Assembly: GCA_023819145.1 (NCBI GenBank)
Contig: JAMWCW010000014.1
Location: 1 to 37,097, forward strand
Reading direction: 5' to 3'
Origin: Candidatus Omnitrophota bacterium
GTDB taxonomy: Bacteria > Omnitrophota > Gorgyraeia > DTHP01
Length of the DNA stretch: 37,097 nt
In this document: positions 12,470-32,198 of the stretch, piece after piece
How the letters are laid out: every line of letters starts with the position of its first letter
Numbering within the stretch: position 1 is the stretch's first letter
Made by a program: the position numbers and the translations under genes
Notes under the pieces: model-generated
Databases searched by the model: none
The model's input: the letters and a program-made list of their open reading frames with translations, nothing else
Told to the model about the DNA's origin: nothing

Positions 12470-12903
12470 TGGAGGTGGCGGGAATCGAACCCGCGTCCTT
12501 AAGTTCTCTGCTAAAAGACCCTACATGCTTAGTCTATCTTTTTTATCTCGCTACGCTTACTCCGATAGACAGGATTAAACATAGCCAGCTCTTTAAATCT
12601 TTGCTTACCTTAGAAGAGCTAACTTGGTAAGCGCATCCTGTTTAAATTCTCTCTTCAGGTCCACAGGCAAGACCTCAAGAGAGGCCTTCCTGGCAATTAG
12701 GCAGGAAGGACTTCTACTACCGGACTGTAGTCGGCAGTTATCAATGTGCAAGGTGTTTTCTTCCGAATGCTGAGACTTATCCAGCCTCACCATCGGAATC
12801 CCGAAGCGATACTTGCGTATTCGCTTCATTCGGAACGAGGCCTCCTTGCAACCTCGGCATGCTTCTTTCAGCAAAGCTACTTAAGTCGAGACCTTTCACC
12901 CCC
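12470..12903 (-). ncRNA. ssrA: Transfer-messenger RNA (ssrA)
   Basis: The 5' end GGGGGTGAAAGGTCTCGAC and 3' end GACGCGGGTTCGATTCCCGC CACCTCC form the tRNA-like domain: GGGGGTG pairs with CACCTCC with one G-U. The discriminator is A, and CCA is not encoded. A 9-bp helix (TTCCGAATG with CATTCGGAA) and several hairpins fill the body. At about 434 bases it is longer than the usual 350-400. smpB lies immediately upstream on the same strand, which supports the call. Confidence 0.92.
12697..12735 (-). other. tmRNA tag-peptide reading frame (ADYSPVVEVLPA)
   Basis: After GATAACT, the usual context before a resume codon, the frame GCC GAC TAC ... GCC TAA encodes ADYSPVVEVLPA. The stop lies in the loop of a hairpin made by CCTTCCTG and CAGGAAGG, as in other tmRNAs. 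The tag ends LPA rather than the common LAA. Assignment is by context, not by comparison with a database. Confidence 0.65.
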
Positions 12904-31255: not shown

Positions 31256-31602
31256 GTCGTTCACTCTCGATTACTCAGCCTCTTGCCGTAATTCTACCGC
31301 TTATTATTTATCTAAATCCTAATTCCTTATGCAACGGCGTTCACTCCCCAAAGGGGCTCTACCCCTATGGCGCTCGCTCATCTTTATTCGCTCGCTGTTA
31401 CCCCGAAAGCGTGAGGGAACTTTTCCCCACAACCCCTTTTAGATTTTTGGCAGTTAGTATCTTATAGATATCCATTAATTATCCTGCATTGCAGGATAAC
31501 TGCCCAAAATCTCTCAAATTTTAATGACGGCATTAAACAAAATCTGCACCAATCTGTGTTTGATATTTAAAACCTATTTGAATCTATGTCATCTGTTATT
31601 TT
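31256..31602. other. Gene-free stretch between tRNA-Gly and tRNA-Leu
   Basis: About 350 bases with no coding frame I would accept. It contains degenerate GGCGTTCACTCCCC and CGCTCGCT-type runs around 31338-31400 and the hairpin element at 31441-31512. Confidence 0.6.
31441..31512. repeat. Compound hairpin element
   Basis: Outer arms AGATTTTTGGCAGTTA (31441-31456) and TAACTGCCCAAAATCT (31497-31512) are inverted with about one mismatch. Inside are TATCTTATAGATA (a small hairpin) and a near-perfect palindrome with arms TTATCCTGCA (31479-31488) and TGCAGGATAA (31490-31499). The palindrome overlaps the outer right arm, so the two folds are mutually exclusive. Confidence 0.7.
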
Positions 31603-31682
31603 GCGGACGGAGAGAGTCGAACTCTCAACCCAAAGGGATACGGTTCTAAGCCGTACGCGTATGCCAATTCCGCCACGTCCGC
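31603..31682 (-). tRNA. tRNA-Leu (anticodon TAG)
   Basis: Acceptor GCGGACG/CGTCCGC. The anticodon stem TACGG/CCGTA encloses CTTAGAA (anticodon TAG). A variable arm and the GAGTTCGACTC T-arm fit a leucine tRNA. Confidence 0.93.
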
Positions 31683-31690
31683 TTTTCTCT

Positions 31691-31763
31691 GGGCCGTGCA
31701 GGAATCGAACCTGCGACCTTGGGATTAAGAGTCCCCTGCTCCACCTATTTGAGCTAACGGCCC
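31691..31763 (-). tRNA. tRNA-Lys (anticodon CTT)
   Basis: Acceptor GGGCCGT/ACGGCCC. The anticodon loop CTCTTAA gives CTT, and the T-arm is GCAGGTTCGATTCCTGC. The 27-43 pair of the anticodon stem is a G-A mismatch, which is slightly unusual. Confidence 0.92.
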
Positions 31764-31877: not shown

Positions 31878-31917
31878 TGGCGCGCCCGGGGTGAATCGAA
31901 CATCCAACCTAATGGTT
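31878..31917 (-). tRNA. 3' half of a split tRNA-Arg(TCT)-like gene, with encoded CCA
   Basis: Reads AA (37-38), CCATT (39-43), AGGTT, then T-arm GGATG-TTCGATT-CACCC, acceptor CGGGCGC, discriminator G and CCA. It has no 5' half in place. Its acceptor pairs fully, with one G-U, with GTGCCCG at 32093-32099. The T-stem has one A-C mismatch. Confidence 0.6.
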
Positions 31918-31935
31918 CTCCCGTAACTCATTGGC

Positions 31936-32008
31936 GCCCCGAGCAGGAGTTGAACCTGCAACCTTTGGGTTCGAAGCCCACTACTCTAGCCAATTGAGCT
32001 ATCGGGGC
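31936..32008 (-). tRNA. tRNA-Arg (anticodon TCG), lying between two tRNA halves
   Basis: Acceptor GCCCCGA/TCGGGGC. The anticodon stem GTGGG/CCCAA encloses CTTCGAA (anticodon TCG), and the T-arm is GCAGGTTCAACTCCTGC. It is a complete canonical tRNA without encoded CCA. It lies inside the 145-base interruption of the TCT-type tRNA. Confidence 0.93.
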
Positions 32009-32062
32009 ATGAATGGAAAACGGGATCCCGAAGAAATTCTATAGTAGTGAACTACATTCGGG

Positions 32063-32099
32063 AGAATCCAGCCACTCTATCCTATTGAGCTACGGGCAC
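32063..32099 (-). tRNA. 5' half of a split tRNA-Arg(TCT)-like gene
   Basis: Reads GTGCCCG, TA, D-arm GCTC-AATAGGATA-GAGT, G26, then GCTGG (27-31) and ATTCT. The last three bases would be anticodon TCT at 32063-32065. Joined to 31917-31881 it gives a 74-base tRNA with loop ATTCTAA. In that anticodon stem, three pairs are Watson-Crick, one is wobble and one (28-42) is a mismatch. After the T, the next bases CCCG form part of an 8-bp helix with CGGGAGAA at 31916-31923. Confidence 0.55.
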
Positions 32100-32100
32100 A

Positions 32101-32198
32101 TCCGACAATATCCCAATGTCAATCTCGCGAATTTACTATAGCCGGGAAACCTACTATTCTATCACTACTCCTAAGGTAGGTAATTGAGCTAAGGAAAC
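32101..32198 (-). pseudogene. Degenerate tRNA-like unit upstream of the split tRNA
   Basis: It begins GTTTCCTTAGCTCAATTACC, like the D-arm start of the two Arg-type units that follow, at a similar spacing (starts at 32198, 32099, 32008). I find no matching acceptor 3' strand and no clear anticodon arm. It may be a decayed tRNA or a spacer. Confidence 0.35.

Follow-up and report, generated by a model that had tools for sequence, protein, structure and literature searches.

Insertion of a two-hairpin palindromic element in a tRNA-Arg(TCG) gene of an Omnitrophota bacterium, with a second tRNA-Arg(TCG) inside the insert

Rickettsia palindromic elements (RPEs) are short, non-autonomous palindromic repeats found in protein genes, where they are inserted in frame, as well as in tmRNA and RNase P RNA (PMC2229807). 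An element of the same general kind, which is not a member of the RPE family, interrupts a tRNA gene in the stretch of DNA analysed here, a 37,097-nt contig (JAMWCW010000014.1, hereafter the window) of a Candidatus Omnitrophota bacterium (GCA_023819145.1). Like RPEs, the Omnitrophota element is palindromic and non-autonomous, and occurs in tmRNA, in RNase P RNA and, in one clear case, in frame in a protein gene. Unlike RPEs, which are Rickettsia-specific and 105-146 bp long, it measures about 75 bp, with 54-bp variants (no Rickettsia sequence was compared directly). It also goes beyond RPEs in having two independent hairpins and in being found in tRNA loops, in riboswitches and, in one copy, around a tRNA. 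REPINs of the REP-RAYT system resemble it in that they, too, are dispersed, consist of two palindromic units in inverted order and have a GTAG-like motif near the unit end. However, REPINs are extragenic, whereas many copies of the Omnitrophota element lie within RNA genes, and the occurrence of the element in a genome does not consistently go with that of a Y1 (RAYT) transposase. Group I introns of bacterial tRNAs likewise interrupt the anticodon loop, but the present insert is much too small, the outer tRNA is decayed and the group I intron core (RF00028) has no match on the window, which rules out a group I intron.

The locus lies on the minus strand. The 5′ half of the outer tRNA-Arg(TCG) gene (acceptor, D-arm and anticodon 5′ strand, ending ...ATTC) occupies positions 32064-32099, and its 3′ half, GAACC...CGGGCGCGCCA with encoded CCA, positions 31878-31918. 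Between them is a 145-bp variant copy of the element (31919-32063, TCCCGAATGTAG...CGGGA). Its exact boundaries follow from intact orthologues of the outer gene in two other genomes (G017, locus L026, and G030, locus L027), where GGCTTCGAACCAG runs uninterrupted across the junction and thus represents an exact empty site. The insert begins with the first, canonical hairpin of the element (TCCCGAATGTAG...CTTCGGGA, 38 nt, 32026-32063), continues with the 5′ arm of a second, non-canonical hairpin (TCCCGTTTTCCATTCAT, 32009-32025), an intact tRNA-Arg(TCG) (31932-32008) and the 3′ arm of that hairpin (ATGAGTTACGGGA, 31919-31931). In this right-hand structure, TCCCGTTTTCCATTCAT-[tRNA]-ATGAGTTACGGGA, only the ends TCCCG/CGGGA of the consensus are retained and the interior is replaced, while ATTCAT and ATGAGT are able to pair across the nested tRNA. 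Judging by its ends and by the variability of this part in other copies, it probably corresponds to the second hairpin of the element.

An initial annotation, made from the window alone, had recognised the minus-strand layout of a 5′ half, a 145-base insert with a full tRNA-Arg(TCG) and a 3′ half, but misplaced the junction by one base (32063/31917 rather than 32064 and 31918) and took the outer gene for tRNA-Arg(TCT). The junction is TTC|GAA in the anticodon loop, between anticodon bases 35 and 36 and not just after base 36; the first T of the insert had been counted as base 36. Without the insert, the anticodon loop reads ATTCGAA (CTTCGAA in relatives) and ARAGORN calls a tRNA-Arg(TCG) in the joined flanks. 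The same annotation suggested looking for an intact TCT gene in relatives and for another tRNA-Arg(TCT) in the genome: in G017 and G030 the intact orthologues have TCG instead, while the genome does have an intact tRNA-Arg(TCT) at C1:151603-151676. The empty site together with this gene rules out a TCT identity of the outer gene. Pairing of the acceptor strands at seven positions, one of them G-U, was borne out on the joined halves (7/7). The perfect 8-bp helix noticed at the junction (TTCTCCCG/CGGGAGAA) is also present, but it is composite, consisting of 3 bp of the host loop (TTC/GAA) and 5 bp of element ends (TCCCG/CGGGA).

The nested and outer genes differ in their apparent fate. The nested gene was identified by ARAGORN, scores 67.7 bits with Infernal and is the only tRNA-Arg(TCG) found among the 41 tRNAs of the source genome, which has no tRNA-Arg(ACG). 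It should therefore be needed for CGN codons except CGG. Considering also its complete cloverleaf and conserved position, the nested tRNA should be functional. By contrast, the outer gene has six differences from the intact gene of G017, two of which break stem pairs, 29-43 (C-T) and 52-64 (A-C) in sequence numbering, whereas the G017 orthologue has no broken stem pairs. Decay, which the initial annotation had considered on account of stem mismatches, is thus apparent. In addition, no family match to a tRNA-splicing endonuclease or RtcB was found in the approximately 97%-complete genome, although positive controls matched; an archaeal-type bulge-helix-bulge intron is ruled out on these grounds. 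Taking the broken pairs and the missing splicing enzymes together, the outer gene is best read as a pseudogene.

A DNA search of related genomes matched, besides tRNAs, the segment that separates the nested tRNA from the 5′ half, and did so at many unrelated places. The underlying repeat is a dispersed palindromic element with terminal inverted repeats, TCCCGAATGTAG-N-CTTCGGGA|TCCCGAAG-N-CTTCATTCGGGA, mostly 73-79 bp long and inserted without target-site duplication. In 73 distinct copies, the two hairpins display 42 double compensatory changes, compared with a shuffle mean of 5.4 and a maximum of 14; these shuffles ignore relatedness, yet the changes are independent between the hairpins (for instance, TG/CA on the left together with TC/GA on the right, or vice versa). 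Within each hairpin, the outer bases covary, T-A with C-G and C-G with G-C on the left and likewise on the right. Pairing of the two ends of the element with each other, on the other hand, gives only 2 double compensatory changes in the same copies. Since the two hairpins covary and the end-to-end pairing barely does, the element consists of two tandem hairpins and not of a single long stem. Variability is concentrated in the right-hand hairpin, which frequently takes the form of a mini-hairpin (TCCCGCCTTTGGCGGGA, for example).

Using a covariance model built from 13 copies, we detected the element in 44 of the 292 genomes of the Omnitrophota class and at five places in the source genome. Among the matches listed in a phylum-wide draw, all came from this same class, and no match was obtained in seven genomes reached via other loci, including two of Planctomycetota and one of FCPU426. 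Viruses gave no exact-pattern match and plasmids no match, and a phage search with the locus retrieved tRNA similarity only. The element is presumably mobile. A Y1 transposase (PF01797) is unsupported as its mobiliser, for it is missing in several element-bearing genomes; two of these draft genomes (G003 and G053) have good copies of the element and no PF01797 match. No description of the element was found in the open-access literature, and the two-hairpin Omnitrophota element is apparently an undescribed family.

To see where copies reside, we sampled sixty of them (L157-L216) down the ranking of the covariance model, disregarding their flanks. About 15 of the 60 lie in RNA genes (tRNA fragments were classified by eye), while genes for tRNAs and other small structured RNAs occupy well under 1% of such a genome (41 tRNAs, 1.5 Mb), a background that is an estimate and not a matched control. 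Relative to this estimate, tRNA, tmRNA, RNase P RNA and riboswitch sequences contain the element far more often than expected. According to Rfam, copies lie inside an RNase P RNA (L207) and inside riboswitches for TPP (L185), FMN (L194) and c-di-GMP-I (L177, L191, L201 and, weakly, L202); in these short stretches most scores fall short of the curated cut-offs, an effect that a 75-nt insert would be expected to have. Longer stretches gave no Rfam confirmation of apparent insertions in cobalamin riboswitches (L193, L208), which are not claimed. In five c-di-GMP-I-like riboswitches from four genomes (L177, L191, L201, L202, L216), the element sits at the same point, ACG|CAAAG (GCG in L216), reflecting either one insertion that spread or a strong site preference.

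In tRNAs, copies interrupt sequences for Glu, Gly, Pro, Val and Leu; an intact counterpart of the same kind is typically found alongside, as at L159, L186 and L197, and the hit tRNAs other than that of the window are often truncated. Copies collected earlier, a biased set because the query contained a tRNA, include those in tRNA-Arg(TCG) and tRNA-Pro of G053, tRNA-Glu of G002 and a tRNA-Leu fragment of G035. At five further loci (L195, L213, L198, L199, L214), the element-bearing sequence is a tRNA-like 5′ fragment that has GIY-YIG-like frames and group I introns next to it. At L312, L313 and L314 (G121, G163 and G061), Rfam places group I introns close to such element-bearing fragments, and small GIY-YIG-like frames lie between the fragments or next to them. 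None of the other copies examined has a tRNA or other long cargo inside.

The second copy in the window (12761-12835, minus strand) is in the pseudoknot 1 loop of the tmRNA gene (12470-12903), which is thereby lengthened to about 434 nt; the remainder is well conserved and the tag frame intact. Similarly, the sole RNase P RNA found in G055, a genome 83% complete, reaches 176 bits despite the element that it contains. For these RNAs, which should be functional, removal of the element at the RNA level is conceivable. The one clear in-frame case in a protein gene is a 508-aa frame of a gltD-like gene, resembling the glutamate synthase small subunit, in G023 (L319, contig C150). The in-frame element there apparently adjoins or lies within an older copy. 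Elements inserted into elements were found at L019 and L189 as well.

The order Arg(TCG)-Lys(CTT)-Leu(TAG)-Gly(GCC)-PTS EIIA is conserved across Omnitrophota, and tRNA-Lys(CTT) (31690-31763) and tRNA-Leu(TAG) (31602-31682), both on the minus strand, belong to this cluster in the window. In most of its members, the Arg place is taken by a gene of the outer (GCGCCCG) type. In a relative of the same family, G001 (sequence as in L029), and in G015, the nested (GCCCCG) type stands alone at the Arg place, and no element was found there. Upstream of the outer gene, at 32146-32197 of the minus strand, there might be a third, strongly decayed 5′ remnant of a tRNA-Arg (TTTCCTTAGCTCAATT...GATAGAATAGTAGGTTTC). 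In local alignments to tRNA-Arg, 0-1 of 500 shuffles were as good, and with the promoter region included, 2 of 1000 shuffles matched the similarity to G001. The tentative remnant lies behind a TATACT promoter-like site and ends at the same TTC position. It hints at repeated turnover at the locus.

The locus is neither an intron nor a split tRNA but a clean insertion of a palindromic element. Of the two options of the initial annotation, a novel interruption or a tRNA inserted in a decaying gene, the latter is close in that the outer gene is decaying, but what interrupts it is a palindromic mobile element. We consider it very probable that this two-hairpin mobile element of about 75 bp killed the outer tRNA-Arg(TCG), that the tRNA-Arg(TCG) inside the element serves the cell and that the outer halves are not spliced. 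The non-autonomous element would have inserted precisely, without target-site duplication, into TTC|GAA of the anticodon loop, inactivating the gene, and the cell would depend on the second tRNA, sited in the loop of the second hairpin. The latter would be transcribed with its surroundings and released by ordinary tRNA 5′ and 3′ processing, leaving the outer halves unspliced and free to drift. A functional interrupted tRNA, in which the cell uses the outer tRNA-Arg once the element has left the RNA like an intron of a novel kind, is very improbable. The precision of the insertion, its place in the anticodon loop and the copies in otherwise intact-looking tmRNA, RNase P RNA and riboswitches would fit it; however, the outer stem pairs are broken, neither a splicing endonuclease nor RtcB nor a group I match was found, truncation is common among the other tRNAs hit by the element, and maturation of the nested tRNA would sever the precursor. 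A chimera joining two tRNA loci deserves equally little credence: the assembly is a draft and repeats near tRNAs can be misassembled, yet the boundaries coincide exactly with the element ends and with the intact orthologue, the flanking synteny is conserved and unrelated assemblies show similar insertions.

Two histories are compatible with insertion of the element and inactivation of the outer gene. The chances appear evenly balanced that two tRNA-Arg(TCG) genes were once neighbours, that the element hit one of them and that a later hairpin-mediated rearrangement enclosed the other. Consistent with this, element-hit tRNAs in five genomes (G053, G002, G035, G071 and G046) nearly all have an intact tRNA of their own kind as neighbour, elements are also found inserted in other elements, and there may be a third remnant upstream. 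Such a history, however, needs two illegitimate joints, and the inner and outer genes are identical at only 54 of 77 positions and so do not represent a fresh duplication. Rather unlikely, in our view, is that the incoming copy already had the tRNA-Arg(TCG) in its second hairpin and replaced the resident gene at once. The position of the tRNA exactly between hairpin arms bearing the element ends, in the variable part of the element, would suit this account, as would the phylum-typical type of the outer gene at the syntenic place, the different type of the nested gene and the rescue of the same anticodon. Against it, the window copy is the only one examined that has cargo, and the nested-type tRNA alone at the G001 and G015 locus, where no element was found, may be the resident gene. 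It is improbable, as a general property, that a miniature mobile element with a preference for the loops of structured RNAs is able to bring along a tRNA gene in its second hairpin as a substitute for the one it destroys.

Interpretation of the locus as an element insertion turns an apparent split tRNA into something testable, namely, apparently undescribed two-hairpin mobile repeats in Omnitrophota. It also serves as a warning for annotation, as insertions of hairpin elements can mimic introns or split tRNAs. The strong bias towards RNA genes echoes the tmRNA and RNase P insertions of Rickettsia in an unrelated lineage and raises the question of whether such elements are directed to the loops of folded nucleic acids or merely tolerated there. 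Two minor observations concern partial or weak matches. In the RNase P RNA of G003 (L248), a single hairpin like half of the element, CCCCGAAGGTAG...CTACATTCGGGG, constitutes a peripheral helix. A weak match in G000 (L143, C4:80714-80788) overlaps the apparent signal peptide of a lipoprotein-like frame (...LSGC).
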